Assembly: GCF_014207905.1 (NCBI RefSeq)
Contig: NZ_JACHLB010000007.1
Location: forward strand, 62,001 to 126,000
Length of the DNA stretch: 64,000 bases
DNA from: Flavobacterium notoginsengisoli
GTDB lineage: Bacteria > Bacteroidota > Bacteroidia > Flavobacteriales > Flavobacteriaceae
Direction: 5' to 3'
Of this stretch, positions 8,347-60,271 are shown in pieces (the stretch's first letter is position 1; every line of letters starts with the position of its first letter). A program made the position numbers and the translations under genes. The notes below the pieces were generated by a model. That model did not search any database. It was not told where the DNA came from and was given only the letters and a program-made list of their open reading frames with translations.

Positions 8347-8348
8347 AT

Positions 8349-8447: not shown

Positions 8448-8450
8448 AAT

Positions 8451-40951: not shown

Positions 40952-41026
40952 GGGCGATTAGCTCAGCTGGTTCAGAGCACCTCGTTTACACCGAGGGGGT
41001 CGGGGGTTCGAACCCCTCATCGCCCA
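40952..41026 (+). tRNA. tRNA-Val (anticodon TAC)
   Basis: The 7-bp acceptor stem (GGGCGAT / ATCGCCC), D arm with AGCTCAGCTGGT, anticodon stem CCTCG/CGAGG with loop TTTACAC, and T arm with GGGTTCGAACCCC are all intact. The discriminator base is A at 41026 and CCA is not encoded. The 3' end is overlapped on the other strand by the stop codon of the serine recombinase (41017-41019), which makes it the likely integration target of the island. Confidence 0.95.
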
Positions 41027-42540
41027 CTGTGAGGGATTACCGAAAGGTTTTCCCTCTTTTTTTTGTATATAAGACATCCCTTTTCCTCCATTTTACTGGC
41101 ATTATGAGAAAATATATCTAAAATTGTAGGTGTTCGATATATACCCTCTTGGTAGTATAAGTTATCATTGAACACCATCTTTACAAACTCACGCTTTTGC
41201 AAAGTATCTGACTTTGTGTAGACATGTCTGATATCACCCAATAAATCCAGATTACGGTCTAAAATCTCGAAGGCCTTCCCTTGATTTGGGCTAAGTCTTT
41301 CTATTGCTGCTGTAATGGTCAATATATGGTCACTGTAGGTTGAATACCATCTTTCGTAGGTATCCTTGTTTATCTCGTCCCTAAACCATTTTTCTTCTAC
41401 TGCATTTAATAGCCGCTGTACTTCCTCCAGCTCATGTTTTTTGTCTGCTACTTTTTTCTTGTTTGCCTTTACTTCCTGTTCAATTGAGGCGTAACTGCCA
41501 TCTCTTATCTCTTTAATCTGTCTTTCAGGAACGCTCATGAGATCGCAGACGTTCAAGAATTGCTCATGTGCTTTGACAGCACTAATGTTGTTATGCTTTG
41601 AATGCTTGCATTTATAATAGTAGAAGTATTTTCCAGATTTACCACGAGAAGGCGCACCAGTAAGCGGAGTTCCACAATGGCATTTTACAACGCCCCGTAG
41701 CGGTATTTCATCATCGATAACTACCTTTACTTTATCAACTTTCTTCATTTTGGACTGTACCATTGTCCATGTTGTCTTATCAACTATTGGCTCATGAATG
41801 GCTGGAAAAAGACCTCCCGGCAGATCTTTGAACGGCTCAACCCTTACAAGCCCTGCATAAACAGGATTTGCAAGCACACGATCAATAGCCATGTTGCCTT
41901 TCCTGTCAAAACCTGATTGATAAGCTATTTCCTTGATTTTATATAACGGCACATCACGCAGATACATATCATAAATTGTTTTGACAATTTTAGCTTCTAT
42001 CTCATTTACTTCAAGGTGGCGCTGTTTTCCTTCTCCGACCTTGCTGTAGCCGAAAGGTTTTTCCCTCGTCAGGAAACGACCTTCTTTTGCACGGGCGGTA
42101 TATAATCCCCCACGTACTTTGATACTCCTGTTGATATTGTCTTCTTCAGCTAGCAACAATTGTAAGCCTGCTCGGAAAAAGCTTCCCGGTGTATCATAAT
42201 CAAAAACGATCCCTTCGGTCACGCTGATAATCTGAATACTGTATTTTTTTTGGAATTGTTTGACCAAACTCATAGCTTCACCAGCATCCCTGCTAAAGCG
42301 GTCAAGCTGGTCTACAAGAAGGTAGTCTACCGATTTATAATGCTTAGCAATGAATGCCTGTAATTTTATAAAATCTGGACGGTCAAAAGTCTTGGCACTT
42401 TTACCCCTGTCGATAAAGGAATCTACCAACTGTATATTATTATATTGCAGGTATTGATCGGTATACAATTCCTGTCTTTCAATCGAGCCATTACTTTGAC
42501 CTAACTGACTAAATCTTAAATATCTAATCGCCCTCTTCAT
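41017..42540 (-). CDS. Large serine recombinase (site-specific integrase)
   Basis: This 507-residue large serine recombinase has a resolvase domain at about 3-150 with the catalytic Ser at residue 11 (YLRFSQLGQ) and the DQLDRFSRD segment. A recombinase domain follows at about 160-270 (REKPFGYSKVGEGKQRHLEVNEIEAKIV), then a Cys-rich zinc ribbon (VKCHCGTPL...YYYKCKHSKH, about 285-320), a long coiled coil (about 350-430) and a short tail. Such enzymes integrate and excise mobile elements at att sites. Its stop codon falls inside the tRNA-Val 3' end, and its start overlaps a 51-codon ORF by 17 bases. Confidence 0.93.
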   Translation of the reverse strand: MKRAIRYLRFSQLGQSNGSIERQELYTDQYLQYNNIQLVDSFIDRGKSAKTFDRPDFIKLQAFIAKHYKSVDYLLVDQLDRFSRDAGEAMSLVKQFQKKYSIQIISVTEGIVFDYDTPGSFFRAGLQLLLAEEDNINRSIKVRGGLYTARAKEGRFLTREKPFGYSKVGEGKQRHLEVNEIEAKIVKTIYDMYLRDVPLYKIKEIAYQSGFDRKGNMAIDRVLANPVYAGLVRVEPFKDLPGGLFPAIHEPIVDKTTWTMVQSKMKKVDKVKVVIDDEIPLRGVVKCHCGTPLTGAPSRGKSGKYFYYYKCKHSKHNNISAVKAHEQFLNVCDLMSVPERQIKEIRDGSYASIEQEVKANKKKVADKKHELEEVQRLLNAVEEKWFRDEINKDTYERWYSTYSDHILTITAAIERLSPNQGKAFEILDRNLDLLGDIRHVYTKSDTLQKREFVKMVFNDNLYYQEGIYRTPTILDIFSHNASKMEEKGCLIYKKKRENLSVIPHSGR

Positions 42541-42679
42541 ATAATTCTTTCAATGTTAATGATACAATAATTTCAATCATTAAATCTACGAATTTTTGTT
42601 CTTTTTCCCGTTCTATATCTTCATAATTTTTTGAGATATGTTCATCTATATCAGTCTGTTTGATATCTTCATGCTTCAT
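42524..42679 (-). CDS. 51-codon acidic ORF coupled to the recombinase
   Basis: This small ORF encodes 51 residues (start MKHEDIKQTDIDEHISKNY, end LKELYEEGD), strongly charged and with a helical amphipathic middle (FVDLMIEIIVSL). It has a perfect AAAGGAGG ribosome site 6 bases upstream of the ATG, unlike nearly every other gene here, and its TAG lies inside the recombinase start region, a 17-base overlap. That implies translational coupling and a role in recombination control, such as a directionality factor, though that is inference. No family is recognised. Confidence 0.65.
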   Translation of the reverse strand: MKHEDIKQTDIDEHISKNYEDIEREKEQKFVDLMIEIIVSLTLKELYEEGD

Positions 42680-42826
42680 TTTGTGCCTCCTTTGTCTTTT
42701 GGTAAAACAATATTTTTTAATGAGCCAATGAATTTAATACCATAGATGGCTTAAGAGTAAATACAGTCTCACCGAGGAACTCTTTGGCTGCATTAGTCTC
42801 AGAGCAATATTAGGAACAGTTATAAA

Positions 42827-42873
42827 AAAAACAAAGACAATCCCTATTTATAGTCGGGACAGTCTTTGTTTTT
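42827..42873 (-). terminator. Terminator after mobB
   Basis: AAAAACAAAGAC pairs with GTCTTTGTTTTT, with further pairing of the inner TCCC/GGGA. On the minus strand the arm is followed by a T8 run. It ends the relaxase transcript before the recombinase unit. Confidence 0.85.
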
Positions 42874-42959
42874 AAAAAGAGTTTGTACAGCCAATTTGAT
42901 GAATCACTCCTTTGTCGTGAATCAACAAAAAGGCTGGCGATTAAAATTGATAGTATGCA

Positions 42960-44249
42960 CTATCTTTTTTTGCGTCTGGCTTTCTTTTTCATTTGGTTGG
43001 CAAATAATCCTTCATCATAGTCATCTCCTTTTGCATTAGATAATAACGCTCCAAAGACTTCAATAAGTCTGTTTTCTTCGTGGCTATTGGACAGATCTTC
43101 CTTAACCAAAAAGCCAAACAGATTGTGTGATTGTTTGACATCTTCATTTATAGTCGCATTGTTCTTTGGAGCACCATTTCCCTGTACAGGCTGCTCCATT
43201 TTATTGCCATTATTCCACCAGTCATTGAAAACGTTAGCAGAAAGGTTTTTGCCTAATTGCGAACCATTCCACACGGATTTCGAACTATGGTCAACAAAGG
43301 TTATTCCATAAACTCTGCCTTCGGTATTTCTTCTTACAACGGTATTAATACCTCGTTCCAACAACCGTTTTTTGAATTCTTTTTCCTCCGATGCCGTCTG
43401 CAAGCACATCTCAATGGTTGTCTTAAGCAAAGCTTTGGATGGCTCATTTTTCAACAACTCTTTGGACTGGGCATAGCGTTGTTGAAGGTGAACATATCCT
43501 GCCTGTTTACCGAACAACGAAGCTTTAAAAGGATTGCTTGCTTTTTCTCCCTTTTCATTTAATGCAAAATATACCAGTCCTTGTTTTGGGATTCCATCAA
43601 ATTCGCCCTTGATTTCTTCGGCTGTAATATTGAAAAGGGAAAGCAGGGCATTGTAGGCGCCGAAACCCTCAAATTTATAGTTCTTTGGTAAATGACGGAT
43701 TACCGAAGCCATCTGGCTCTTTATGTCACCAGCCTTATAATCAACGGGTTTGAATATTTGATTTTGTGGATTTTGCTTTTTCTCGATAGCCGATATCAGG
43801 CAGTATTGTTTTTCCAATTCGCGACAGACATCCATCGAACGCCTTTTTTCAAATTTATCAGATATTTTCCTGCCATTTTCATCCACACAAACTGATACGA
43901 TATGAATATGGGTACGCTCAAGATCAGTATGTTTGAATACCACAAAAGGCTGTTCAGCGTAACCCATTTTCTGCATATACTTTTGCGCCAGCTTTTCAAA
44001 TTGTTCATCACTTACTTTATCCTTCGGATCAGGATTGAGAGAGATATGTAATATTGGTTTTTCAGTCTTTCGATTGGCCAGCAGGTACGGTTCAAATGAA
44101 CGCAACAGTTGACTAGTGGCGTAAATGCCATCAGGAGTTTCAATTATCTTATTGGTATACAAAACCTGCCCATTTTCCTTTTCCACTTTCTGCTGATTGT
44201 ATGCCAATGCGCCATACAGATTGTTTCCTCTTCCTATCTTAGCTATCAT
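42960..44249 (-). CDS. mobB: Relaxase/mobilization nuclease (MobB type)
   Basis: This 429-residue relaxase starts MIAKIGRGNNLYGALAYNQ. The HUH metal motif is in THIHIVSVCVDENG (about residues 110-123), with FEKRRSMDVCRELE following. It should nick at oriT and lead the strand during transfer. The rest is helical and ends in a Lys/Arg-rich tail (KKKARRKKR). It overlaps the upstream mobA gene by 4 bases and is therefore translationally coupled. A decayed paralogue lies at 47811-48142 on the other strand. No coupling protein gene is seen, so a helper element would be needed. Confidence 0.9.
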   Translation of the reverse strand: MIAKIGRGNNLYGALAYNQQKVEKENGQVLYTNKIIETPDGIYATSQLLRSFEPYLLANRKTEKPILHISLNPDPKDKVSDEQFEKLAQKYMQKMGYAEQPFVVFKHTDLERTHIHIVSVCVDENGRKISDKFEKRRSMDVCRELEKQYCLISAIEKKQNPQNQIFKPVDYKAGDIKSQMASVIRHLPKNYKFEGFGAYNALLSLFNITAEEIKGEFDGIPKQGLVYFALNEKGEKASNPFKASLFGKQAGYVHLQQRYAQSKELLKNEPSKALLKTTIEMCLQTASEEKEFKKRLLERGINTVVRRNTEGRVYGITFVDHSSKSVWNGSQLGKNLSANVFNDWWNNGNKMEQPVQGNGAPKNNATINEDVKQSHNLFGFLVKEDLSNSHEENRLIEVFGALLSNAKGDDYDEGLFANQMKKKARRKKR

Positions 44250-44677
44250 TTTTTCAGGTGTTTTGCTTCAAAATCTTCAGTTAGTAGAATGATTTTTTGG
44301 CACAATACCGCCATTTCTGCTGTCTGTTTTTCCAATTTATAGAGATAGGCTGCGGCTTTCTTTTCGGAAAAATTGCGGTACAGTATTTTTACCACTTGGT
44401 TATAATTGGTTCCTACAGCCCTGAACTGTCCGAATAGGGTAGTCAGGCGCATATAGTAATCCATGGTTGCCTTGTCAACCGTTACGTTCGTAATTGCTTT
44501 TTGGAAAATACATGCCGTAATAAAATGGGCCATTACATCCATGCGTGAAGCTTCGTAGAGAGAAAGGAATCGTGCATTTTCCTCAGCACTAAGGCTTATA
44601 GAATAGCGGTGAACGGCTGGATCTTTCTTAGGATGCCTGCCTCCTTTATGCGGGGTGGTTTTGCCGTTGCTTTCCAT
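44246..44677 (-). CDS. mobA: MobA-type mobilization accessory protein
   Basis: This 143-residue protein of the Bacteroidota MobA/MobC-like group binds oriT with the relaxase. The N-terminus is basic with HKGGRHPKKDPAVHRYSISLS, a ribbon-helix-helix-like start. The central RLTTLFGQFRAVGTNYNQVVKILYRNFSEKKAAAYLYKLEKQT is the family signature (called MobC in Proteobacteria). The stop overlaps the relaxase start by 4 bases. The nearest candidate oriT is the region just upstream (44680-44890), which contains a GGGTCCTGTCG sequence on the minus strand, but no assignment is proved. Confidence 0.85.
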   Translation of the reverse strand: MESNGKTTPHKGGRHPKKDPAVHRYSISLSAEENARFLSLYEASRMDVMAHFITACIFQKAITNVTVDKATMDYYMRLTTLFGQFRAVGTNYNQVVKILYRNFSEKKAAAYLYKLEKQTAEMAVLCQKIILLTEDFEAKHLKK

Positions 44678-44893
44678 TACCGTTATTACTGGTTTCGTTT
44701 AAACAATTTAAAAACCAATATACTTTATCATTAGTAATGACCTCTGGATATTGGAGAATATGGAAGCATTTGGCTTACTATTTCCGCATGTTGATTTTCG
44801 CCTTAAGGACAACTTCCGTCAAACAAAGCCACGACAGGACCCTTTCTAAGAGTGCCTCGCTTTCGGGATTAATTTCATGAGAAACGTGAAATT

Positions 44894-45583
44894 ATGCTCT
44901 ACAAAGAAACAGTTAGCAAGGAGATGTGGGAACTTCTCCAAAGGCTTATGAAAGATGAAAAATTGAAAGACTATATATTGGTCGGCGGTACGGCGTTAGC
45001 CTTACGACTGGGACATCGCTTATCAGTGGATCTAGATCTTTTTACAAAAAAAACTTTTAATTCGCAGATGATGCTCAAATATCTGCATGACACTTACGAT
45101 GTAAATGAAAAGGAAAGCCAGTTCTTCCCGAACACTGTTCTTACCTACATCGATGATATAAAAGTCGATATTGTTACACACAATTACCCTCTTCTGAATT
45201 CCGTGGAAACAGCTGAAGGAGTCCGCATGATTTCCAATGAAGATATTGGAGCAATGAAACTCCATGCGATTCATCAGAGCGGAGACAGGTACAAGGATTT
45301 TGTTGACATGTACTTTATGCTTGAACGAGAACCATTAAAGTTCTACCTACAAGCCTATCAGAGAAAATACGATAAGGATCCCTACTGGGCTTCCATAGGT
45401 CTGAATACATATGACAAGATTAGTACCTTTGAAGGTATAGATATGCTGAAAGAAAAAGAGCAAAACTGGAAAATTATCCAAAAACGGCTGGAACTGGCAG
45501 TAAAAAATCCTTTGTATAAATTTAAATCAGAAAGCCAGGATTTACCGATTAATCCCAACAAAAAGAGAGGATTTCGCAGGTAA
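44894..45583 (+). CDS. AbiEii/AbiGii-type nucleotidyltransferase toxin
   Basis: This 229-residue nucleotidyltransferase of the AbiEii group has the motif GGTALALRLGHRLSVDLDLF (about 35-54) with the DxD metal pair. Later KLHAI...GDRYKDFVDMYFML holds the Lys/Asp of the C-terminal conserved part. AbiEii toxins modify tRNA or NTP targets to stop growth on phage infection. The following gene (DUF6922) is the likely antitoxin. It is divergent from mobA. Confidence 0.85.
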   Translation: MLYKETVSKEMWELLQRLMKDEKLKDYILVGGTALALRLGHRLSVDLDLFTKKTFNSQMMLKYLHDTYDVNEKESQFFPNTVLTYIDDIKVDIVTHNYPLLNSVETAEGVRMISNEDIGAMKLHAIHQSGDRYKDFVDMYFMLEREPLKFYLQAYQRKYDKDPYWASIGLNTYDKISTFEGIDMLKEKEQNWKIIQKRLELAVKNPLYKFKSESQDLPINPNKKRGFRR

Positions 45584-45630
45584 TTAAGCAAAAAATACTT
45601 ATATTTGATACTACACCAATTAAAAAAACA

Positions 45631-45942
45631 ATGAAGCCATTAACCAAACATATACCTAATCTTCACCCTAAATTCTTCTGGGATTTTAGATTCGACAGTA
45701 TTGATTGGGATGGAGGATATAAAATGGTAATTGCCCGTATTGTTGAGCGTGGAGGTCAGGATCAAATTGACGAAATCGTCCGTTTTTATGGTCATGAAAA
45801 AGTAATTATTTCTATCCGTGACGAGATTTTCTTTCTTCCCAACTATGCCATTGAGAATGCTCTTAAATTCTTTCCCGAACTCAAAAAGGAAGAGATGTAT
45901 TGCTATCTCAACCGTAAAGACAAACCCTATCACTGGATTTAG
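45631..45942 (+). CDS. DUF6922-type protein, candidate antitoxin
   Basis: This 103-residue protein opens with KHIPNLHPKFFWDFRFDSIDWDGGYKMVIARIVERGGQDQ, the pattern of the DUF6922 family. These genes are often found beside AbiEii-type nucleotidyltransferases in Bacteroidota, which suggests an antitoxin role although the antitoxin is usually AbiEi. It starts 47 bases after the AbiEii stop on the same strand. Family assignment is moderately sure; function is inferred. Confidence 0.65.
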   Translation: MKPLTKHIPNLHPKFFWDFRFDSIDWDGGYKMVIARIVERGGQDQIDEIVRFYGHEKVIISIRDEIFFLPNYAIENALKFFPELKKEEMYCYLNRKDKPYHWI

Positions 45943-45949
45943 TGAATAC

Positions 45950-46429
45950 CTAAATCCCTAAACGGGTTTTTCTTGGTTTATTTAATTCCTCATCTTTGCT
46001 TTGTTCCGTCTTAACGCCAATATTAAGTGGCTGGTTTGTACGCTGTCTCAATGATTCTTTTTCGCTTGGAGTTAAATTGTTCCTGCTATCATTGTTTACA
46101 TAACGAAAAACCGTTTTTAAAGACCCCATTATATCCAAAGGTTTTTCAGGCTTCTGTACTGGCTTCTTTTCACTTTCCGTAATTTTAATAACCAATAGCT
46201 TATCTAATAGTCTGCTTAGCCCTGTTTTTGTTGGGTTTTTAAACTGTTTGAGAAAATTAGAGAAGAAATTGCTTAAAATGTTTCCACCCCTGTCTACCTG
46301 CATAAATGGAATTTTCTTTCCATTATCCTTTTTTTTAATTTTCCTCTTTTTTTCCTCTTCAGGTTTTGGAGTTAATAGTGGTTTTTTCTTTTTTTTCGAT
46401 GCTTTATCTTTATGCTTATCTTTTTTCAT
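45950..46429 (-). CDS. Basic hypothetical protein of the mobile region
   Basis: This 159-residue protein has a strikingly Lys-rich first 40 residues (KKDKHKDKASKKKKK and further KKR clusters). A short ordered middle follows (DRGGNILSNFFSNFLKQFKNPTKTGLSRLLDKLLVIK) and a Lys/Glu-rich end. I do not recognise the family. It is convergent with the DUF6922 gene and separated by 7 bases, so it has its own promoter. A nucleic-acid-binding function is suggested by composition only. Confidence 0.5.
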   Translation of the reverse strand: MKKDKHKDKASKKKKKPLLTPKPEEEKKRKIKKKDNGKKIPFMQVDRGGNILSNFFSNFLKQFKNPTKTGLSRLLDKLLVIKITESEKKPVQKPEKPLDIMGSLKTVFRYVNNDSRNNLTPSEKESLRQRTNQPLNIGVKTEQSKDEELNKPRKTRLGI

Positions 46430-46439
46430 GATATTTTAT

Positions 46440-47254
46440 TTTCAGACAAAAGGTAATTATTAGATTTTTAGATTCTTGTTTTTGACACAGTAAGTCTTTG
46501 ATTGGCAGTACATGTGAGACTTTGTACGGGTTGGACTTTATATTTTACCTAAAGAAATAATAAAAAGAAAAACAAGGTAGGACGTGCTGGATCAGTCTGT
46601 CCAAAAGACTACGGCATAATGGTTTGCTCGTTCCTCACAAACCACCCTTCGGGACTTATTCCGTTTCCTTTTGTCCTGTCTGCATCCCGTCCTTTGAAAT
46701 TGCTTTCTTTTTCTTTTTTCCGATTTTCGGTTTTCTTTGGAAAAAACATTTATGTTTTTAGATAGGGGTATATGTGTGTATCTAAAAGTCTATTTATTTA
46801 CTTATTTACATAAGGGAGTATTCATGTCTTTGCGTAAAAGCATACATATGTAAAAGAATAAAACTGTAAAAGCGTATGTACATACATACAGCTATACAAG
46901 CGCATTTAGTTATGGAATTAAATACTTCTATAAATCAGTGCATCCGTACAGAATTGCATTGATACCTCAATAGGCATGAGAAGATATATTTAAATATTTA
47001 TGTTTTAAGTTACGTATCTGCATATTGTCTAATTCGGCAGATAACTGCAGTTAAGCTTCTCTGGAATTTATAGAGTTGACCCCATTAAAACCAGGAATGC
47101 CAAAACTATCCTATTTCTACATAGCCTTATCATGGCTGATTTTGTTCAAACCAATAACAACACATAACAATTCCTAAATATCCGCAAAACAAAAAAAAGG
47201 GCCTCAAGCCCTTTCCATTAAAACCATATCCAATAATATTTTCTCAGGAAAATA
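46440..47254. other. Gene-poor stretch of the island
   Basis: About 800 bases hold no convincing coding frame. They contain a roughly 150-base GC-richer block (about 46570-46720), a T/A-rich run with many TATGTA/TACATA palindromes (about 46760-46920), and a small hairpin AAAGGG-CCTCAAG-CCCTTT (47198-47213) whose T-run is on the minus strand. The character is that of a recombination or transfer region, not coding sequence. Confidence 0.4.
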
Positions 47255-47308
47255 GCAAGTTGTGTTTTGAGCTGCTTGAAATACTTTCCGCAGCTCAAAA
47301 CCACTTGC
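47255..47308. repeat. 20-bp imperfect inverted repeat, candidate oriT
   Basis: The left arm (47255-47275, ...GTTTTGAGCTGC) and right arm (47290-47308, GCAGCTCAAAAC...) pair over the inner 12 bp perfectly, and GCAAGT/ACTTGC extends the outer part with one bulge. CCTTGCAGGGGGCTGG and an AAAACGCC/GGCGTTTT hairpin follow. The distance to the mobA remnant (about 90 bases) is right for an oriT, but nicking has not been shown. Confidence 0.45.
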
Positions 47309-47397
47309 CCTTGCAGGGGGCTGGAAAACGCCTCCAAAGTCGGCGTTTTATTAAAATTCTAAATAGATTTACGATTAACGAAAACTATTGTAAAAAA

Positions 47398-47809
47398 AAG
47401 CATAAAGGGGACGGACAACCAAAATCAATCCGAGTATTTACCGTCACGTTTTTCGCCTTACGGACGAAGAAATCGTGAAATTATTATCACTTTTTGAAGC
47501 ATCTGGAATGGTCAATAAAGCAAAATTTATCCTTTCCATACTGTTTGGAAGAGAGATTAAAACGGTCAAAATAGACAAAGCTGTGTTGAATTTTTATATG
47601 AGGTTAACCTATTTTCACAACCAGTTCCGTTCGATTGGCGTAAATTATAATCAGGTCGTAAAGCTGCTGTACCGCAAATTTTTGGAGAAAAAAGCGGCAG
47701 CTTATCTCTACAAATTGGAAAAACAAACGGCTGAAATCGCGTATTATGTCAAAAAATTATTCAGCTCACAGAAGAATTTGAAGCTAATCATTTGAAAAAA
47801 TATCACTAA
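47398..47809 (+). pseudogene. Inactivated mobA paralogue
   Basis: The translation recovers the mobA protein in pieces: HKG, then GRTTKINPS...RLTDEEIVKLLSLFEASGMVNKAKFI, then YNQVVKLLYRKFLEKKAAAYLYKLEKQT. It is about as long as the intact copy at 44246-44677. Two single-base contractions break it: a G-run (47407-47410) between HKG and GR, and an A-run (47751-47756) before the last 17 codons (IIQLTEEFEANHLKKYH). TAA ends at 47809, directly in front of the mobB remnant. Confidence 0.8.
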
Positions 47810-47810
47810 A

Positions 47811-48142
47811 ATGATAGCAAAAATCGGAAGAGGGAGCAATTTAGACGGCGCTTTGATATACAATCAGCTCAAAGTGGGGAAACAAAACGGGCAAATTCTT
47901 TTACCAATAGGATAATAGAAACACCCAATGGACGGTATTCTGTTGCAAAATTAACCCAATCTTTCGAACCTTTTTTGATAGCCAACCGCAATTCTGAAAA
48001 AACAATTTTGCATATTTCACTCAATCCTGATTCTAAGGATAATGTAAGTGATGAAAAGTTCAAATTAATGGCTCAGGAATATATGCAGGAGCTGGGTTAT
48101 GGGTAACAACATTTTATAGTATTCAAGTACACGGATACTGAC
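47811..48142 (+). pseudogene. Truncated mobB relaxase remnant
   Basis: The start MIAKIGRGSNLDGALIYNQ matches the intact relaxase. A single T lost from the T-run at 47899-47902 shifts the frame before TNRIIETPNGRYS. A nonsense codon replaces Glu just after GYG (near 48104), and after VFKYTDTDR (about 48142) the sequence passes into the IS3 fragment with no conserved HUH motif left. It is a fossil of a second mobilization module. Confidence 0.8.
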
Positions 48143-48364
48143 CGTAAAGGAAATTACTGGGATAATGCTGTAGCCGAAAGCTTCTTTAAATCTTTGAAAA
48201 CTGAATTGATTTATGGAAACAAACTGATTTCTTAAGAACAAATGAAATTAGAAATCTTTGAATATATTGAAATTTGGTACAACCGAAAAAGAAAACATTC
48301 TGCTTTAAATTACTAAAACATTTAAGAATTTAACAATCAAATTAATTACAAGAATGTAACTTAA
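48143..48364 (+). mobile_element. IS3-family transposase C-terminal fragment
   Basis: The frame gives [19 protein letters not shown] followed by the family's IEIWYNRKRKHSALNY. It contains at least three in-frame stops where other family members have Lys or Glu (LIS*EQM, NY*NI*EF). Only the last third of the integrase core is left, joined directly to the mobB remnant, so the rest was deleted. No intact inverted repeats are seen. Confidence 0.8.
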
Positions 48365-49260: not shown

Positions 49261-49278
49261 TCTTTAGAAAATCTTTAG
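49261..49278 (+). promoter_or_regulatory. 11-bp-period direct repeat before PAP2 gene
   Basis: TCTTTAG at 49261 and again at 49272, separated by one helical turn, with a weaker third unit at 49283. The ATG of the PAP2 gene is 91 bases after the second unit. It is the same element as at 50244-50261; OmpR-family regulators bind such tandem repeats. Confidence 0.6.
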
Positions 49279-49369
49279 AATCTATTAAGCACTAACAAAT
49301 ATTGATTTTGAAATCTTTGTCAAATGATAGGTAATGACAATTATACAATTTATAAAATCAATATAAAAA

Positions 49370-50134
49370 ATGAAGGTACGTAAATTTATCACAGTGGTTG
49401 TAGTATTAAATATTGGGTTCAACTTTGCTAATGCACAGCAACAAGATACTATAAAGACATTTCAGAATTGCAATTCACATCAATTCAAACTCAAAAAACT
49501 TATCCTACCTTCAATATTAATTGGATACGGAATAGTTGGCATTGAAAGTGATCAATTAAAATTTTTCAACACAAATATAAAAGAGGAAGTCAACGAAAAC
49601 ATAGATAAAAAAATAACAATCGATGATTTTTCACAATATGCTCCTGTAGCATCTGTATATGCTTTAAATGCTTTTGGGATTAAAGGGAAGCATAATTTTA
49701 AAGACAGAACTATCATTATGGGTACTTCCTATTTAATAATGTCTACAACAGTTTTAAGTTTAAAATCAATAACTCACATACAAAGACCCGATGGCTCAGC
49801 TTTCAATTCATTTCCATCCGGTCATACAGCAACGGCTTTTGCAAGTGCAGAATTTTTATGGCAAGAATATAAAGATGTTTCTATTTGGTATGGTATTTCA
49901 GGATATGCAATTGCAGCCGCAACGGGTGCTTTTAGAATTTATAACGACAAGCATTGGCTAACAGATGTAGTTGCAGGTGCAGGTATAGGGATTTTAAGTA
50001 CCAAAATCGCCTATTGGATTAATCCGTTTATTCAAAAGAAAATATTCAACTCCAAAGAAAAAAATACTATGTCCTCAATTGCACCTTTTTATAATGGAAA
50101 ACAAGTGGGCATTGGTTTTTTAAGAACGTTTTAA
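49370..50134 (+). CDS. Secreted PAP2-family phosphatase
   Basis: This 254-residue protein has a signal peptide (about 1-23, ending NFANAQ) and the PAP2 acid phosphatase triad: motif 1 KSITHIQRP, motif 2 FPSGHTATAFAS and motif 3 AFRIYNDKHWLTDV with the His and Asp. The region between is hydrophobic. It could dephosphorylate phosphatidate, undecaprenyl pyrophosphate or lipid A phosphates in the periplasm. The promoter carries the TCTTTAG direct repeat, so it likely belongs to the regulon of the nearby two-component system. Confidence 0.88.
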   Translation: MKVRKFITVVVVLNIGFNFANAQQQDTIKTFQNCNSHQFKLKKLILPSILIGYGIVGIESDQLKFFNTNIKEEVNENIDKKITIDDFSQYAPVASVYALNAFGIKGKHNFKDRTIIMGTSYLIMSTTVLSLKSITHIQRPDGSAFNSFPSGHTATAFASAEFLWQEYKDVSIWYGISGYAIAAATGAFRIYNDKHWLTDVVAGAGIGILSTKIAYWINPFIQKKIFNSKEKNTMSSIAPFYNGKQVGIGFLRTF

Positions 50135-50243
50135 TTATAAAGTAGCGATAAATGATTATTTAAAACCGCAACAATCTAATTTTAAAGTTCATTTTTGATA
50201 ATCGTAAATAATTATTTCACACAAATTAAAGTATTCAAATACT

Positions 50244-50261
50244 TCTTTAGTCAATCTTTAG
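50244..50261 (+). promoter_or_regulatory. 11-bp-period direct repeat before the two-component operon
   Basis: TCTTTAG at 50244-50250 and 50255-50261, with a weaker TCATTAA at about 50265. The start codon at 50320 is 58 bases downstream. It implies autoregulation of the operon that encodes the response regulator. Confidence 0.6.
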
Positions 50262-50319
50262 ATTTCATTAATCCAAACCAAATACTCATTTTATAATCTT
50301 TGTAAAAAATAAAAACATT

Positions 50320-50796
50320 ATGATTAGTGCTACACATTTACACGCTATGGTAATACATTTTCCAATAGCATTGCTTCTTATCGGATTTATAAATGAAATA
50401 ATTGGAATTGTTTTTAAGAAAACATTTTTCAATAAAACAGCATTTTACCTGTTAATTTTAGGTACTTTTGGAACTATTGCTTCCTATTTATCTGGCGATG
50501 CGGCAGGTGAAGGTATGGACGGCGGAACATTAGGCAAAGCAATTGAACTACACGAAAATGCAGCAATAATAACACTTTGGCTTGCAATAATCACATCAAT
50601 TGTTTATTGTGCAGTTAATTGGTTTAAATATTCAAACAAGTGGATTAAAGTCGCAAGTGTTTTACTATTTGCGGCGCTAATTGGCGGTGTTTCTCGTACT
50701 GCTTATTTGGGTGGACAATTGGTTTACAATCACGGTGCAGGTGTAGAATTAGCATTACCCAATTTTAATGAAAACGAAAGTGGCTTAAATCTATAA
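50320..50796 (+). CDS. DUF2231-like membrane protein, copy 1
   Basis: This 158-residue protein has four predicted membrane helices and an opening HLHAMVIHFPIALLLIGF with His in the first helix. The conserved GDAAGEG and RTAYLGGQLVYNHGAGVE loops face the periplasm. Such His-rich DUF2231-like proteins may bind heme or metal. It lies directly before the response regulator (18 bases) and is about 30% similar by eye to the copy at 53990-54484, with the same RTxYLGGQ motif. Confidence 0.75.
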   Translation: MISATHLHAMVIHFPIALLLIGFINEIIGIVFKKTFFNKTAFYLLILGTFGTIASYLSGDAAGEGMDGGTLGKAIELHENAAIITLWLAIITSIVYCAVNWFKYSNKWIKVASVLLFAALIGGVSRTAYLGGQLVYNHGAGVELALPNFNENESGLNL

Positions 50797-50814
50797 TAAT
50801 TAGAGGTATCAAAG

Positions 50815-51492
50815 ATGAGAATTTTAATAGTAGAGGATGAATCGGCAATATCAGGTTTTTTAAAAGAAGGACTTGAAGAAGAAGGTTTTGCAGTGGACGT
50901 TGCTGATAACGGACGAAAAGGATTAGAATTAGCCTTAGATTTTACTAACGAGTATGATGTAATGTTGCTCGACTGGATGGTTCCTGGTGTGAGTGGAATA
51001 GAAATTTGCAGAAATGTTAGAAAAGTAAACCAACAAGTACCCATTATTTTTTTAACAGCCAAAGATACGGTCGATGATACCATTTTTGGTTTAGAAACAG
51101 GTGCAAATGATTATTTAAAAAAACCTTTTGCTTTTGAAGAATTACTTGCTAGAATTAGAGTGTTAATGCGAAGTAAAACAGGCGAACAAACAATATTTAC
51201 AGTGGGTTCAATTCAATTAAATATCGAAGCGCACACAGTACTTAAAGACGGCAAACAAATAATACTAACCCAAAAAGAATTTGGATTACTAGAATTATTA
51301 CTTCGAAGTAAAGGAAAAGTTTGTCGCCGTTCAAGAATTATGGAAAAAATATGGGACATCCATTTTGATAAGGATACAGCTGTGATTGATGTTTTCATCA
51401 ATACTTTACGAAAAAAGTTAGATACTGAAAACGAAGAATCTATCATACAAACCATAAGAGGTGTTGGATACATAATTAATGAACAAGAATGA
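50815..51492 (+). CDS. OmpR-family response regulator
   Basis: This 225-residue protein has a receiver domain with phosphoacceptor D53 (VMLLDWMVPG), acidic pocket ED at 7-8, and Lys in LKKPFAFEELLAR. A winged-helix DNA-binding domain follows (FTVGSIQLNIEAHTVLKDGKQIILTQKEFGLLELLLR to TIRGVGYIIN). OmpR-type domains recognise tandem half-sites about 10-11 bp apart, fitting the TCTTTAG repeats. The kinase gene starts inside its stop (4-base overlap). Confidence 0.95.
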   Translation: MRILIVEDESAISGFLKEGLEEEGFAVDVADNGRKGLELALDFTNEYDVMLLDWMVPGVSGIEICRNVRKVNQQVPIIFLTAKDTVDDTIFGLETGANDYLKKPFAFEELLARIRVLMRSKTGEQTIFTVGSIQLNIEAHTVLKDGKQIILTQKEFGLLELLLRSKGKVCRRSRIMEKIWDIHFDKDTAVIDVFINTLRKKLDTENEESIIQTIRGVGYIINEQE

Positions 51493-52865
51493 GATTGAGT
51501 TTTAAAAAACGAATAGCTACTTACAATTTATTTGCGATTGCTACACTGACAGCTATCGCTTTTGTCGTGATATATAGTGTCGTTTATTATACCTCATACA
51601 AACATTTAGATGATGACATTACAACAGAAAAAGTGGAAGTTTTTTCCAATTTAGATTGGGACGATAACCAAATTATAATGAATAAAATGCCCGAGTGGGA
51701 AGAAGCAGAACACAAACAACTTGAAGTAAATCCAACATTCATACAAATAGTCGATTTAAATGGAAATACCATTTTCAAATCGGTCAATTTACAAGAAAAT
51801 CACTTTCTATTTAATCCAAAAAACACAAAAACCGTTTTTTATAATGCTATAATCAACAACCAAAAAATAAGACAAGGACAGTTTCCTATATTTAACAATA
51901 ATCATAAAATAATAGGTCAACTTACAATAGGCGTTTCACAACAAGAATCCTACAATGTATTACACAACCTGATGATAATTTTAATTAGTACCTATGTTAT
52001 TATTTTACTGATTCTATATTTCATTATGTCGTTTGTGGCTTCAAAAGCTATTGAGCCAATATATCAATTGATTGATTCCGCTTCACAAATTAATTACACC
52101 AACATTAATGCTCGATTACCGCTACCAGAAAACCAAGATGAAATACACCAATTAGCAACTACTATAAACCAACTTCTAGCCAGATTAGAAAATAGTTTTT
52201 ACCAACAAAAACAATTTACATCAGATGCTTCTCACGAAATGCAAACACCTTTGGCAGCAATTAAAGGAATTATAGAAGTGCTTTTAAGAAAACCGAGAAC
52301 AGCTGAGCAGTATGAGTTAAAGATGAAAGAAGTTTTAAATCAAACAAACAGGTTATCTCAATTATACGATCAATTACTTCTGTTGGCACGTCTAGAGTCC
52401 AATGTATTAAAGAGCAACAAAAAACAAATTGTTCTCCATACATCAATTGAAAAATGTATAAACAATCACGAAGTAATCGTTAATGAAAATAAGGTTATAA
52501 TCAATAACACGGTGCCTAATGAAGTGCTAGTTTTAGCAGATACACTTTTATTAGAAATGATATTAGACAACTTAATCTCTAATGCCATTAAATACAATAA
52601 AACCGGAGGCAACATATATATATCTTGGGACAAATCAGATAGATTATTGTCAATCAAAGATGAAGGTGTTGGTATTGAAGCCGATAAATTGCAATTAATT
52701 TTTAATCGATTTTACCGAATTGATGATTCAAGAAATTCTCAAGTACCAGGAAACGGTATAGGACTTTCTATCGTAAAAAGAATATGTGAAGTTCAAAATA
52801 TTTTTCTTTCAGTAGATAGTATACAAAATCAAGGCACCACATTTCAATTGCAATTTCCTTCCTAA
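51489..52865 (+). CDS. Membrane sensor histidine kinase
   Basis: This 458-residue kinase has two transmembrane helices (about 13-33 and 160-182) flanking a periplasmic sensor of about 125 residues, then HAMP (about 183-235). The phospho-acceptor is H249 in FTSDASHEMQTPLAAI, where the usual SHELRT is altered to SHEMQT. The ATP-binding domain has N-box LISNAIKYN, G1 DEGVGI, F FNRFYR and G2 GNGIGLSIV. It is translationally coupled to the response regulator. The signal is unknown; redox or metal stress is suggested by neighbours. Confidence 0.93.
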   Translation: MRLSFKKRIATYNLFAIATLTAIAFVVIYSVVYYTSYKHLDDDITTEKVEVFSNLDWDDNQIIMNKMPEWEEAEHKQLEVNPTFIQIVDLNGNTIFKSVNLQENHFLFNPKNTKTVFYNAIINNQKIRQGQFPIFNNNHKIIGQLTIGVSQQESYNVLHNLMIILISTYVIILLILYFIMSFVASKAIEPIYQLIDSASQINYTNINARLPLPENQDEIHQLATTINQLLARLENSFYQQKQFTSDASHEMQTPLAAIKGIIEVLLRKPRTAEQYELKMKEVLNQTNRLSQLYDQLLLLARLESNVLKSNKKQIVLHTSIEKCINNHEVIVNENKVIINNTVPNEVLVLADTLLLEMILDNLISNAIKYNKTGGNIYISWDKSDRLLSIKDEGVGIEADKLQLIFNRFYRIDDSRNSQVPGNGIGLSIVKRICEVQNIFLSVDSIQNQGTTFQLQFPS

Positions 52866-52868
52866 AAA

Positions 52869-52896
52869 CTTTAGCTGAATTTAAGATTTCACTTAG
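52869..52896 (+). promoter_or_regulatory. Degenerate 11-bp-period repeats before the rubrerythrin operon
   Basis: CTTTAG, TTTAAG and ACTTAG occur at 52869, 52880 and 52891, exactly 11 bases apart, resembling the two TCTTTAG elements upstream. The ATG 52957 is 60 bases after the last unit. It is weaker than the other two sites. Confidence 0.4.
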
Positions 52897-52956
52897 ATAG
52901 GTAAAAGACAACTAGCTTGACCTTTACACTATTAAAAACTTAAAAACAGTTATATT

Positions 52957-53184
52957 ATGAAAACACAAATTTTCACCTTCGCAGTACTTGTTGCAACGCT
53001 TAGTTTTACATCTTGTAAAAATAATGAAGCACCACAAGCAGAAACTCCTGTAACTACAACTCAGGTTGCACCAACTACTCAAGCAGAACCACCTGCCCAA
53101 GTTCAAGACACAACGGCAAAAACCACAACAAAAACTCTTGAGAAAGAAGAAAATGAAGCAAACGAAAAAAACGACAAAGATTAA
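52957..53184 (+). CDS. Small lipoprotein
   Basis: This 75-residue lipoprotein has the signal peptide MKTQIFTFAVLVATLSFTSC (lipobox FTSC, Cys20). The short Thr/Pro/Gln/Glu-rich tail is probably disordered, and no domain is recognisable. It is followed by the rubrerythrin gene after 28 bases, likely on one transcript. Confidence 0.65.
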   Translation: MKTQIFTFAVLVATLSFTSCKNNEAPQAETPVTTTQVAPTTQAEPPAQVQDTTAKTTTKTLEKEENEANEKNDKD

Positions 53185-53212
53185 TCAAAAAATCAAAAAA
53201 AATAAAGAAATT

Positions 53213-53977
53213 ATGAAAACAGTAAATCGCGAATATCCAGAAAACAATCTTTTTAGTAGCAATAGAAAAAGGGTTATCCTATTTAGTCTTGCTTTATTTA
53301 TCGGCCTTGCTTTACAATCTTGTAAAAATTCTAATGATAATGAAGAAGGTATGAAAAACCCAACAGAGCTTGCAACGAACAATACAAAAACTGCTGAATC
53401 TAAAATAATTTCAGTAGATGAAGCAAAAGCAAAAACAGCAGCTAACTTGCAAGATGCCTTTAATGGAGAGTCAAATGCAACAGCTAGATATGCAGCTTTT
53501 TCTAAAAAAGCCAATGAAGAAGGTTTTAAAGAAATTGCGTTATTGTTCAAAGCGGCCTCATTAGCCGAAAAAATACACGCTAACAATCACAAAGCGGTAC
53601 TGGAAGAAATGGGAGTTGTAGTAAAACCAGCAACAATCGACGTAAAAGTACAATCAACAAAAGAAAACTTAGAATTTGCAATAAAAGGTGAAACCTATGA
53701 AGCAATAACAATGTATCCTAACTTCCTTAAAGATGCCAATGCTGCAGGAAATCAACTTGCTTTAATTAGTTTAAACTACGCATATAAAACTGAAAAAAAG
53801 CACAAAGCGCTTTATGAACTTGCTTTGAGTGCATTAAATAGTAATAAAACAAACACATTAGCGTCAACCTTTTATGTATGTCCAACTTGTGGTAATACAT
53901 ACGAAACAACTGCTCCAAAACGTTGTGGAATTTCAATGACTGGTGGAGAAAAGTTCATTAAAATTAATTCACTTTAA
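53213..53977 (+). CDS. Periplasmic lipoprotein rubrerythrin
   Basis: This 254-residue protein starts at ATG 53213; the longer frame upstream is not needed. A lipoprotein signal ends in LQSC (Cys37). The ferritin-like di-iron domain has Glu86 (NGESNATARY), Glu119/His122 (LAEKIHANNHK), Glu160 (IKGETYEA) and Glu194/His197 (TEKKHKAL). A C-terminal rubredoxin-like tail has CPTC at 223-226 and one more Cys at 238, so only three of four usual iron ligands are visible. It likely reduces peroxide with electrons from an unknown donor. It is unusual in being exported. Confidence 0.88.
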   Translation: MKTVNREYPENNLFSSNRKRVILFSLALFIGLALQSCKNSNDNEEGMKNPTELATNNTKTAESKIISVDEAKAKTAANLQDAFNGESNATARYAAFSKKANEEGFKEIALLFKAASLAEKIHANNHKAVLEEMGVVVKPATIDVKVQSTKENLEFAIKGETYEAITMYPNFLKDANAAGNQLALISLNYAYKTEKKHKALYELALSALNSNKTNTLASTFYVCPTCGNTYETTAPKRCGISMTGGEKFIKINSL

Positions 53978-53989
53978 ACTTTAGAAATC

Positions 53990-54484
53990 ATGGACCAAAC
54001 TCATATTCACTTATTAATTACACATCTTCCAATATTTGGCTCGCTACTTGGAACATTAGTATTAGGCTATGGTATGTGGAAAAAAAGTGATACAACTCAG
54101 TTGGCATCCTATTATTTACTTGTAATTTCCGCTTTAGGTGCTATGATTGCCTACTTAACGGGTGAAGCTGCTGAAGAAACCGTTGAAAATATTCAAGGTG
54201 TTTCCGAGAGTGTAATCGAACAACATGCTGATTTTGCAAGCTATGCTTTGGTAGCCTTAATAACGGTTGGCGTCTTTTCTTTAGTTGGTATCTACTTCAA
54301 GAGCACTAAAAGCACTTTTGCAAAGCCAGTGGCAATAATTACACTATTCTTAGCACTTATTAGCTTTGGATTAGTAGCTCGTACTGGATACTTAGGTGGT
54401 CAAATTAGACATACTGAAATTGCATCAGGAACTTTGCAAACCGCTGGAGAACAAGGAGGCGAACAAGATGGCGATGATGATTAA
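53990..54484 (+). CDS. DUF2231-like membrane protein, copy 2
   Basis: This 164-residue four-helix membrane protein starts with MDQTHIHLLITHLPIFGSLLG, with two His near helix 1. It has a GEAAEETVENIQGVSESVIEQHADF periplasmic loop and the RTGYLGGQIRH motif that matches the other copy. The C-terminus is acidic. It lies 12 bases after the rubrerythrin stop, so the pair may work together, for example as membrane-anchored redox or metal-handling partner. Confidence 0.75.
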   Translation: MDQTHIHLLITHLPIFGSLLGTLVLGYGMWKKSDTTQLASYYLLVISALGAMIAYLTGEAAEETVENIQGVSESVIEQHADFASYALVALITVGVFSLVGIYFKSTKSTFAKPVAIITLFLALISFGLVARTGYLGGQIRHTEIASGTLQTAGEQGGEQDGDDD

Positions 54485-54513
54485 TAGCATACCTTTCTCA
54501 AATAATCTGCACC

Positions 54514-54545
54514 AAAAAGCGATTCGCAACTGAATCGCTTTTTTT
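54514..54545 (+). terminator. Terminator after DUF2231-like copy 2
   Basis: AAAAAGCGATTC pairs with GAATCGCTTTTT, followed by further T. The VIT gene must therefore have its own promoter or rely on read-through. Confidence 0.85.
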
Positions 54546-54587: not shown

Positions 54588-55289
54588 ATGATAACAATCG
54601 ATAACTATTTAGACAGTCATTATATCCATAGAAGTAATTGGTTAAGAGCAGCGGTTTTAGGTGCTAACGACGGAATAATTTCTATTTCAAGTCTTGCAAT
54701 AGGTGTAGCGGCAGCAAGTTCAACACGTGAACCAATAATTCTAGCAACAGTTGCAGGTTTGGTAGCAGGTGCTTTGTCTATGGCTGCAGGTGAATATGTT
54801 TCTGTAAGTTCACAAACAGATACTGAAAAAGCAGACATCGAACGTGAAATACAAGAATTAAGAGATATGCCAGAAGAAGAGCTAAAAATATTAGCTCAAA
54901 TCTATGAAAAGAGAGGGTTAAAAAAAGAAACTGCAATGCAGGTAGCACTTGAATTAACAGAAAATGACGCATTAGGAGCTCACATAAGGGACGAATTAGG
55001 GATAAATGAAATAAGTCAAGCAAATCCTATTCAAGCAGCTTTAGCATCCGGCGCAGCTTTTACAGTTGGCGGTGTTTTACCGCTTTTAATAATACTTTTT
55101 ATGCCTGTTAAAGGTATGGAATATTCGTTATACGCAGCAACAATTATATTCTTAATCATTTTAGGAACAATGGCGGCAAAAACAGGTGGTTCAAGTATCT
55201 CAAAAGCTATTTTACGAATTACCATTTGGGGTACGATAGCAATGGTTTTATCGGCATTAGTAGGTTATATTTTTGGTGTAAAAGTATAA
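54588..55289 (+). CDS. VIT1/CCC1-family metal transporter
   Basis: This 233-residue protein opens with the VIT1/CCC1 signature: HYIHRSNWLRAAVLGANDGIISISSLAIGVA, and AGALSMAAGEYVSVSSQTDTEKADIEREI with the Glu-rich metal-binding domain (about 80-140). ANPIQAALASGAAFTVGGVLPLL and two C-terminal helices follow. Family members move Fe2+ or Mn2+ out of the cytosol. Next to a rubrerythrin, iron export is a natural role. Confidence 0.9.
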   Translation: MITIDNYLDSHYIHRSNWLRAAVLGANDGIISISSLAIGVAAASSTREPIILATVAGLVAGALSMAAGEYVSVSSQTDTEKADIEREIQELRDMPEEELKILAQIYEKRGLKKETAMQVALELTENDALGAHIRDELGINEISQANPIQAALASGAAFTVGGVLPLLIILFMPVKGMEYSLYAATIIFLIILGTMAAKTGGSSISKAILRITIWGTIAMVLSALVGYIFGVKV

Positions 55290-55342: not shown

Positions 55343-56242
55343 ATGATAAAAACAGAAAAACAAGGACTGTCACAATTAGGAAGAATTACCGCCCCCTTTA
55401 TTATTATTACATCTATATACACAATACTTGTGCTTGGTATTGAAGAACACTTTGGCGATCATATTTATAAAATATCAGGTCAAATAGGTTCTGTATTTGG
55501 ACTTGCGGTTGCGTTTTTCTTAGGATTTAGAATGAACTCTGCATACGACAGATGGTGGGAAGCAAGAAAAATTTTTGGTGAATTGACCAATAATACCCGA
55601 AGCTTTGTTACAAAGATATATGTGTATTATAGTAATGAGAGTCATTTTAAAGAATCAGAGCGAACTGATTTGAAACTAAAAGCAAAAAAAACAATCGATT
55701 TAAGCATCTTATTTATTAGACAATTAAAGAATGAAATGCACAACAACCATAAACCAACTTTTAGCGAAGAGTCAAACCATCTTATTTCTGAATTTGATAT
55801 TAATAAGCAGAATAAAATTTCAAATGAAATTCTAGTCGCAATTACAAAAAATATTGAAGATAGTTTTGCTTTTACGGCAAGAATTGAAAAAGGTGATTTG
55901 ATGCAACACTTAAACAGATTTTATGATATTCAAGGTAAGGCAGAGCGTATAAAAAACACACCGTTTTTAATGATTTACAGTGCATTCACGAGAATAATTG
56001 TATATTTCTACGTACTACTAATTCCTTTGTTTATAGGCGATATTGACTTAGGAGGAGAAAATAGTGGATTTGAGTTTTTAGCAATTCCAATTATGGTCAT
56101 TATCAGTACTGTCTTTTTAACAATTAATAAATTGGCGAATCTACACGGTGAACCTTTTTCAGAAAACAAAACCTCTGTGACAATAGATGAAATCTGCCAA
56201 ACAATTGAACAAAACTGCAATGAAATGAAAGCAAAATTATAA
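55343..56242 (+). CDS. Bestrophin-family channel protein
   Basis: From ATG 55343 this is a 299-residue bestrophin-like (RFP-TM, YneE) membrane protein; the longer frame upstream starts at an unlikely ATG within the VIT gene. Motifs are FGLAVAFFLGFRMNSAYDRWWEARKIFGEL, FLMIYSAFTRIIVYFYVLLIPLFIG and FLTINKLANLHGEPF. Bacterial members conduct monovalent cations or anions. The gene ends the stress/metal module. Confidence 0.85.
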   Translation: MIKTEKQGLSQLGRITAPFIIITSIYTILVLGIEEHFGDHIYKISGQIGSVFGLAVAFFLGFRMNSAYDRWWEARKIFGELTNNTRSFVTKIYVYYSNESHFKESERTDLKLKAKKTIDLSILFIRQLKNEMHNNHKPTFSEESNHLISEFDINKQNKISNEILVAITKNIEDSFAFTARIEKGDLMQHLNRFYDIQGKAERIKNTPFLMIYSAFTRIIVYFYVLLIPLFIGDIDLGGENSGFEFLAIPIMVIISTVFLTINKLANLHGEPFSENKTSVTIDEICQTIEQNCNEMKAKL

Positions 56243-59515: not shown

Positions 59516-60244
59516 GTGGTAAAAACGATTGAAAATACAATAGAGAATTACTTCAAATCTAACACACAACTTTCAAGAGATGAATTAGGAAACCTAATCA
59601 GTAGAGACTTTCCGGAACTTTCGGAAGGAACAATAACGGTTTACCTATCTAAACTCAAAAAGGCAGGTGTAATAAATAATCCAGCAAGAGGAATTTATTC
59701 AATAACAGATAAACAAATCTTCAATCCGGAAATAAACCAAAATTTAAAAAAGATATACAATAAAATTCATAAAGAATTTCCATTTATAGAAATCTGTGTT
59801 TGGAATACTAAATGGTTAAGTGATTTAATGCGGCACCAACCTTTTAAAAACTTCACCATCATTGAAGTCGATAAAGAAGCCGAAGAACAAGTTTTTAATG
59901 CGGTAAGCGAATGGACAAAAAACGTGTACTTCAATCCTAATGATGAAATCCTAGAAAGATACATTAGTTCAAATACGGAAGAAGTAACTATTATTAAAAA
60001 TTTAGTAACCGAATCACCAACTGTAAAAAATAATAAAATAGTGATCCCTACACTGGAAAAATTATTGGTAGACATCATGATAGATAAAGAACTTTTTGCA
60101 GCGCAACAAGGAGAGTTAGATTTTATTTACAAGTCTGCTTTTGATAAATACGATGTGAATAAAGCCAAAATGAAAAGATATGCAATAAGAAGAAACAAAG
60201 AGCAGGATTTAGAAAGAATGATAAGCAGAATAATTACCAAATAA
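59516..60244 (+). CDS. AbiEi-like antitoxin / DUF6577 transcriptional regulator
   Basis: This 242-residue protein starts at GTG 59516; no ATG fits before residue 100. It has an N-terminal winged helix (IENYFKSNTQLSRDELGNLISRDFPELSEGTITVYLSKLKKAGVINNPARGIYSI, about 9-65) and a C-terminal AbiEi-type domain ending LVDIMIDKELFAAQQGELDFIYKSAFDKYDVNKAKMKRYA. AbiEi represses its operon and neutralises AbiEii. The AbiEii-like gene follows 27 bases later. Assignment as DUF6577 is from pattern only. Confidence 0.8.
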   Translation: MVKTIENTIENYFKSNTQLSRDELGNLISRDFPELSEGTITVYLSKLKKAGVINNPARGIYSITDKQIFNPEINQNLKKIYNKIHKEFPFIEICVWNTKWLSDLMRHQPFKNFTIIEVDKEAEEQVFNAVSEWTKNVYFNPNDEILERYISSNTEEVTIIKNLVTESPTVKNNKIVIPTLEKLLVDIMIDKELFAAQQGELDFIYKSAFDKYDVNKAKMKRYAIRRNKEQDLERMISRIITK

Positions 60245-60271
60245 GCTGTATTTTGCGAATAATAGATAAAA

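Follow-up and report, generated by a model that had tools for sequence, protein, structure and literature searches.

A 64,000-nucleotide stretch of Flavobacterium notoginsengisoli DNA (assembly GCF_014207905.1, contig NZ_JACHLB010000007.1, positions 62,001 to 126,000 of the forward strand), referred to here as the window, carries at 49261–54543 a gene module that includes a two-component system, an OmpR-family response regulator (RR) and its sensor kinase (HK). Three promoters of the module contain tandem repeats of a short element at an 11-bp period. Based on comparison with orthologous loci, it is highly likely that these repeats are the operators of the module's own two-component system. 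The elements and genes of the module are listed below in window positions.

49261–49300, + strand: operator of the PAP2 promoter; TCTTTAG, TCTTTAG and TATTAAG at an 11-bp period, weak fourth unit AACAAAT; score 37.4
49312–49319, + strand: -7 element AATCTTTG of the PAP2 promoter; its TTTG lies 55 bp downstream of the unit 1 start
49370–50134, + strand: PAP2-family phosphatase (PF01569); signal peptide by eye
50244–50283, + strand: operator of the DUFa-RR-HK promoter; TCTTTAG, TCTTTAG, TCATTAA and a weak fourth unit; score 48.2; conserved before DUFa in type A loci
50295–50302, + strand: -7 element AATCTTTG of the DUFa-RR-HK promoter, from the promoter alignment
50320–50796, + strand: DUFa, a DUF2231 protein; four predicted helices, invariant His 6, 8, 13 and 78
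50815–51492, + strand: RR, CusR/CopR-like (Pfam, NCBIfam)
51489–52865, + strand: HK; PDC-like periplasmic domain with a conserved W-x-x-x-E-H segment
52868–52907, + strand: operator of the LP-rubrerythrin promoter; ACTTTAG, ATTTAAG, CACTTAG, GTAAAAG; score 57.3; well conserved in type A loci
52919–52926, + strand: -7 element GACCTTTA of the LP-rubrerythrin promoter, from the promoter alignment
52957–53184, + strand: LP75, a small predicted lipoprotein; lipobox by eye, short similarity (23 amino acids) in loci L051 and L057
53213–53977, + strand: rubrerythrin with a lipobox-like signal peptide; rubredoxin-like end CPTCG...RCGIS without the fourth Cys
53990–54484, + strand: DUFb, a second DUF2231 protein (Pfam)
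54514–54543, + strand: terminator-like hairpin with T run (z -4.5), closing the LP-rubrerythrin-DUFb unit

Repeat arrays and promoter geometry

The initial annotation of this DNA had placed TCTTTAG-N4-TCTTTAG before the PAP2 gene and the RR operon. Both exact pairs were found, at 49261–49278 and 50244–50261 on the + strand, and they are the only two copies in the genome (5,507,597 bases). Both strands of the window together contain 25 copies of TCTTTAG, for which about 0.005 exact 11-bp pairs are expected by chance, against two observed. The same annotation had described a degenerate set with this period before the rubrerythrin operon, and that set is real: CTTTAG, TTTAAG and ACTTAG stand at 52869, 52880 and 52891. 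A third unit, missing from that description, also follows the exact pair in the PAP2 and DUFa promoters. A gapless alignment of the three promoters puts units 1, 2 and 3 at 11 bp, often with a weak fourth.

A 60-bp matrix built from 21 sites, all of them in other genomes, scores the three arrays at 57.3 (52868), 48.2 (50244) and 37.4 (49261); elsewhere in the window no place exceeds -1.3, and in 60 shuffles the highest score is 6.3. The array at 52868, degenerate by eye, is the best fit of the three to this external matrix. A loose search of the window gives no clear excess: with up to three mismatches there are 24 matches against 17.0 expected, and 10 of 100 shuffles reach 24. The loose form alone therefore means little.

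The half-site is CTTWAG, and its repeat at 11 bp, one helical turn, places the units on the same face of the DNA, two strong ones first and then one or two weaker. Pairs of CTTWAG in the intergenic DNA of 25 loci (see below) lie 11 bp apart in 26 cases, 22 bp apart in eight, and at any other distance from 6 to 40 bp in seven altogether; the 26 pairs are 19 distinct places once readings of both strands count once. The array spans roughly -60 to -23, in place of a -33 element, and ends upstream of a -7 element that we take to be of the Bacteroidota promoter type. TTTG or TTTA stands exactly 55 bp past the start of unit 1 in all three window arrays, the degenerate one included, and at an offset of 54 or 55 in all 55 collected sites. 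These comprise five own-genome sites, 40 of 51 matrix rows, nine RR promoters found by pattern and the DUFa site of L060; 11 matrix rows were left out (six were a taken site shifted by one unit, four lay elsewhere, and one re-entered as an RR promoter). The matrix excluded the TTTG/TTTA region, and the own-genome and L060 sites were chosen by eye.

Conservation across orthologous loci

A DUFa scan of genome contigs gave 25 loci, 21 of which have RR-HK beside DUFa. The initial annotation had suggested looking for the repeats upstream of orthologous modules, and there they are: with a 44-bp matrix made from the five own-genome sites, all 21 loci with adjacent RR-HK have sites (best score 17.0–47.8, against 16.1 for the best of 250 shuffled loci), whereas none of the four loci without RR (L064, L068, L069, L076) scores above 11. 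The loci are partly non-independent, since close relatives recur among the rows of Maribacter, among those of Aequorivita and in the pair L051/L057, and L052 and L073 are one and the same record. Conservation of the sites spans RR-bearing loci of 55–85% DUFa identity. Flavobacterium jejuense has a DUFa with neither neighbouring RR nor site, although it keeps an RR of 55% identity.

The loci are of two types. In type A the order is DUFa-RR-HK, then rubrerythrin, mostly with DUFb and a VIT1-family transporter (VIT) behind. In type B it is RR-HK-DUFa, mostly with rubrerythrin next. Type B sites also precede a large open reading frame in L062, L066, L071, L072, L073 and L078 (that of L073 is whole in L052). 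The frames tested, from L052, L062, L066 and L071, encode CusA/CzcA-family heavy-metal efflux proteins of 1444–1445 amino acids (1141–1152 bits, cutoff 701); the L052 protein is fused to an outer-membrane efflux part. VIT and DUFb follow the efflux gene in L052, L062 and L066, and a site lies before DUFb in L063, L075 and L077 (Pfam checked for L063). One contig of a metagenome-assembled genome carries two RRs of the subfamily close together (L070:3402–3926 and 7884–8552).

Genome-wide scans and co-occurrence with the regulator

Neither matches with up to two mismatches in the own genome nor exact CTTWAG pairs across genomes separate from a reversed control in most genomes. The genome-wide statements therefore rest on two 66-position models with rough E-values, R1, built by sequence only from 23 type A sites, and R2, the type B model. 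In the own genome (G000), R1 finds five sites at 1.8e-10 or better, all in two copies of the module; the next, at 5.3e-5 and 6.4e-4, are the two further sites described in the following section. In ten other type A genomes all 19 sites below 1e-8 belong to the module, and no further match is better than 0.0017. Recall by R1 is by construction, most of these sites being training sites; the result is the absence of others.

Among 100 genomes of the family, G000 included, R2 at E<1e-5 finds sites in G000, G021, G040, G053 and G093 only, and exactly these five have an RR match at E<=1e-55. All five genomes with the RR thus have a site and none of the 95 without it does; the chance of this overlap is 1.3e-8. 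The R2 site of G000 is that of a siderophore-receptor gene, away from the RR. The other four are not training genomes, and their loci have at most 87% DNA identity to the 25 loci or no match. With R1 the best match outside G000 in the same genomes is in G093 (2.5e-5). A scan at the level of the order, with 17 candidates scored per genome in 296 genomes, finds an R1 site better than 9e-6 in G000 only; the genomes whose RR is type B-like (G125, G133, G449) give no R1 match at E<=3e-4.

R2 was also applied to 32 held-out genomes of the 296: all eight with an RR of at least 56%, eight of 19 further genomes with an RR match, and 16 that have none. In ten of the 16 RR-bearing genomes, R2 finds a site (E<=0.01) no more than 4 kb from the RR, a limit set after the places were known. 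In eight of these genomes it lies immediately upstream of the RR or about 1.4 kb past it, where we infer that the HK gene ends, and in two (G333, G452) it is about 3 kb off.

A second module copy and related regulators

The second copy lies on contig C6 (L051), with identities to the window of 73% for DUFa, 83% for RR, 74% for HK, 76% for rubrerythrin, 89% for DUFb, 91% for VIT and 91% for bestrophin. Its arrays before DUFa and LP-rubrerythrin likewise stand 55 bp from the -7 element. Its PAP2 gene (57% identity) is at the opposite end of the module, on the other strand. In the window, 49 of 66 bases are identical between the promoters of PAP2 and DUFa, and so the PAP2 site may have arisen by copying of the DUFa promoter. 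A plasmid of Chryseobacterium balustinum (NZ_CP033935.1, L186) has a PAP2 relative beside a CusA/CzcA efflux gene, a heme-binding-domain protein and a cation P-type ATPase; no place there scores above 9. A search of plasmids for the RR gave no match at 1e-60.

A third RR-HK pair (RR3; L164:3163–5379, G000 C7:210163–212379), whose RR is 54% identical, has a similar array in the divergent promoter toward a sulfatase-family gene. A strong CTTAAG array also precedes a TonB siderophore-receptor gene (285 bits, cutoff 223.5) at L165:5149–5188 (G000 C5:64149–64188); a sequence similar to it is present in G470. The 83% paralog and the 54% relative probably read the same code. The proposal that the RR at 50815 controls the three units is supported by comparison, though this RR need not act alone, since RRs of 83% and 54% identity have sites as well.

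Alternative explanations

Several observations count against assigning the arrays to the module's own RR as activator. The R2 cut of E<1e-5 was chosen afterwards, and at the original 1e-3 three of the 95 genomes without RR pass too. R1 has a match at E<=0.05 in 52 of the 100 genomes, and two that have no close RR, G026 and G008, reach 4.5e-4 and 4.7e-4; weak sites are therefore given no weight. Six of the 16 RR-bearing held-out genomes lack a nearby site (G410, G442 and G470 have one elsewhere; G127, G303 and G490 none), and two of the 16 without RR have a site at E<=0.01 (G119, 2.4e-4; G154, 0.0054). There is no array before the PAP2 relatives at L051, L168 and plasmid L186, the PAP2 site being known from the window copy only. 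The look-alike sites of the 83% paralog and the 54% relative mean that sequence cannot assign an RR to a site. Finally, geometry is the sole ground for choosing activation over repression.

A very improbable alternative is that the arrays belong to a different regulator, either RR3 (G000 C7:211569) or a global one, and that the module RR merely adjoins them. The arrays in RR3's own promoter and before the siderophore-receptor gene speak for it, as does the frequency of RRs of 51–59% identity in the genus (21 of 25 other genomes, among the matches listed). Yet with relatives of RR3 so common, full-strength type A sites are confined to the module, as the order-level scan with its 17 candidates per genome indicates, and the site is missing from DUFa orthologs that have no RR beside them, even where, as in F. 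jejuense, a 55% RR is kept. It is unlikely, too, that the module RR binds the arrays as a repressor and keeps the module off until a signal releases it. An array overlapping the expected -33 position would suit such a role, but the fixed spacing to the -7 element in all 55 sites, with no clear -33 element, fits a class II activator of the PhoB/PmrA type, and repression would need no fixed spacing. We give practically no credence to an origin of the repeats by chance or from shared AT-rich promoter composition. What it can draw on is the unclear enrichment at three mismatches and the reversed control, which is mostly commoner than the loose pattern in the own and type A genomes. It was ruled out by the external matrix, the 11-bp spike, conservation at 55–85% DUFa identity, the -7 spacing and the co-occurrence with RR.

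Neighbouring genes

Two genes follow the terminator-like hairpin:

54588–55289, + strand: VIT1-family transporter (Pfam); no site by matrix scan
55343–56242, + strand: bestrophin-family channel (Pfam); no site by matrix scan

The initial annotation had entertained control of this metal transporter and the bestrophin by the RR, which is not supported. A hairpin with T run separates DUFb from VIT in eight of nine type A loci examined (L056 is the exception), and the external matrix finds no array before VIT or bestrophin in the window. Because a terminator precedes them and no site was found, both are probably separate units here, outside the regulon. A functional link of VIT to the module remains likely because some type B loci have VIT behind an efflux gene that is preceded by the array.

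Proteins of the module

The RR has a receiver domain (PF00072, 100.7 bits) and a C-terminal winged helix (PF00486, 85.8 bits), both above cutoff, as in the OmpR/PhoB family. Its best family model is TIGR01387 (cztR_silR_copR; 241.6 bits, below the cutoff of 279.2), and that of the HK is TIGR01386 (231.2 bits, below 292.55). W70, E74 and H75 are invariant in 18 HKs and lie in a low-confidence part of the structure model. Fold matches of the HK sensor are close together, namely WalK (Z 11.2 and 9.7), CusS with silver (9.7) and PhoQ (9.3); Foldseek gave no match for it at E<=0.001.

Both DUF2231 proteins exceed the gathering threshold of PF09990 (54.2 and 28.8 bits against 26.4). The predicted four-helix fold of DUFa has no match in the PDB at E<=0.001, and its four invariant histidines are invariant in DUFb as well. 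The rubrerythrin matches PF02915 (77.2 bits, cutoff 22.8) and, below cutoff, NCBIfam NF045767 (94.6 bits, cutoff 200). A rubredoxin centre has a Cys4 pattern. All 24 rubrerythrins examined, three of them from loci without RR, end in CPTCG...RC[GE]IS, with Ser at the place expected for the fourth Cys. A lipobox-like Cys follows a hydrophobic stretch in 22 of the 24 (not in L067 and L072, in the part inspected), and these rubrerythrins look exported. The PAP2 protein shows a weak likeness to the lipid A 1-phosphatase LpxE (NCBIfam, 30.6 bits against a cutoff of 177).

Likeness to known regulators

The PmrA (BasR) box is given as CTTAAG-N5-XTTAAT (PMC3973317, PMC4660055), with base contacts by Asn188, Asn196 and Arg210 in the latter paper. 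PmrA is alike in being an RR of the OmpR/PhoB family that reads head-to-tail copies of nearly the same hexamer across a 5-bp gap (11-bp period), placed to recruit polymerase, and CTTWAG-N5-CTTWAG, this half-site architecture, is found in the sites. The module is unlike it in having three to four units and different targets. The PmrA model NF007928 gives 165.8 bits on the RR, below its cutoff of 330. In a hand alignment with a PmrA sequence, Arg210 is kept while Asn188 and Asn196 are seemingly replaced. A PmrA-like lipid A regulon was considered and not upheld. In the second copy an EptA-type phosphoethanolamine transferase gene (L051:2210–3766; 751 bits, cutoff 561) is divergent from PAP2, with no array in the DNA upstream of it.

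The 7+4 architecture, the tandem arrangement and the position in place of the -35 region recall PhoB, whose pho boxes are 7-bp repeats with 4-bp spacers; sequence and targets are different, and the PhoB model gives 198.9 bits on the RR, below its cutoff of 296.2. The CusR/CopR/CzcR regulators with CusS-type kinases provide the best family models, the CusS fold match and a parallel in the type B sites before a CusA/CzcA-family gene. Unlike them, the module's RR and HK fall below the curated cutoffs, the repeats are direct, whereas the known CusR site is a palindrome, and the targets include rubrerythrin and DUF2231 proteins. The matches listed in our literature searches (partly the best 20 of 93, 8 of 82, 10 of 458, 8 of 66 and 20 of 161), judged by title and the start of the abstract, contain no description of the regulon or the box.

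Proposed mechanism

From the geometry and the precedent of PhoB and PmrA, we infer activation by tandem binding of the RR. A periplasmic signal would cause the HK to phosphorylate the RR, and dimers of phospho-RR would then occupy the half-sites in head-to-tail order and recruit RNA polymerase, as in PhoB/PmrA-type activation. Phospho-RR would raise expression of its own operon, DUFa-RR-HK, by positive autoregulation, and also that of the LP75-rubrerythrin-DUFb operon and, in the window copy, of PAP2. The likeliest signal is metal or a linked periplasmic peroxide or oxidative stress, because the type B code also precedes a CusA/CzcA efflux gene, in some loci with VIT and DUFb behind. Such a regulon would be local, the regulator carrying its own targets along, here on a mobile island.

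Mobility and significance

The module lies behind tRNA-Val, a serine recombinase, a relaxase and MobC, and the region at 40952–48330 marks a mobile island carrying it. Within this region tRNA-Val abuts the serine recombinase, relaxase and MobC genes, and broken MobC, relaxase and transposase-like pieces are seen by eye at 47475–48330. The window also holds two AbiEii-type nucleotidyltransferase genes (44894–45583 and 59516–61309), one beside a DUF6577 gene, a toxin-antitoxin-like cargo. The window RR groups with those of Kaistella and Halpernia (98/88), i.e., Weeksellaceae, and the second copy with Flavobacterium salmonis (99/97). In Kaistella a piece of PAP2 is found upstream of DUFa. Transfer of the whole cassette on the island would be the simplest reading.

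A wider proposal, which we regard as tentative and on balance doubtful, has two parts taken together. A subfamily of Bacteroidota RRs would read one strict code (CTTWAG at 11 bp, 54–55 bp before the -7 box), and the module at 49261–54543 would be a cassette that moves horizontally, regulates itself and encodes an undescribed system of periplasmic detoxification. In it, an exported lipoprotein rubrerythrin with an altered (Cys3-Ser) rubredoxin site and, paired with it, His-rich DUF2231 membrane proteins, which may pass electrons or metal to the rubrerythrin, would be switched on by periplasmic metal or peroxide.

To our knowledge, the binding site is known for few of the two-component regulons of Bacteroidota. 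The arrays would provide a sharp, testable operator code that predicts targets across families. They would also tie two DUF2231 proteins, a family mentioned by a single paper in the literature searched, to a regulator and a partner. With the window RR among Weeksellaceae and the second copy beside that of F. salmonis, the module would represent a regulator that travels with its own operators.

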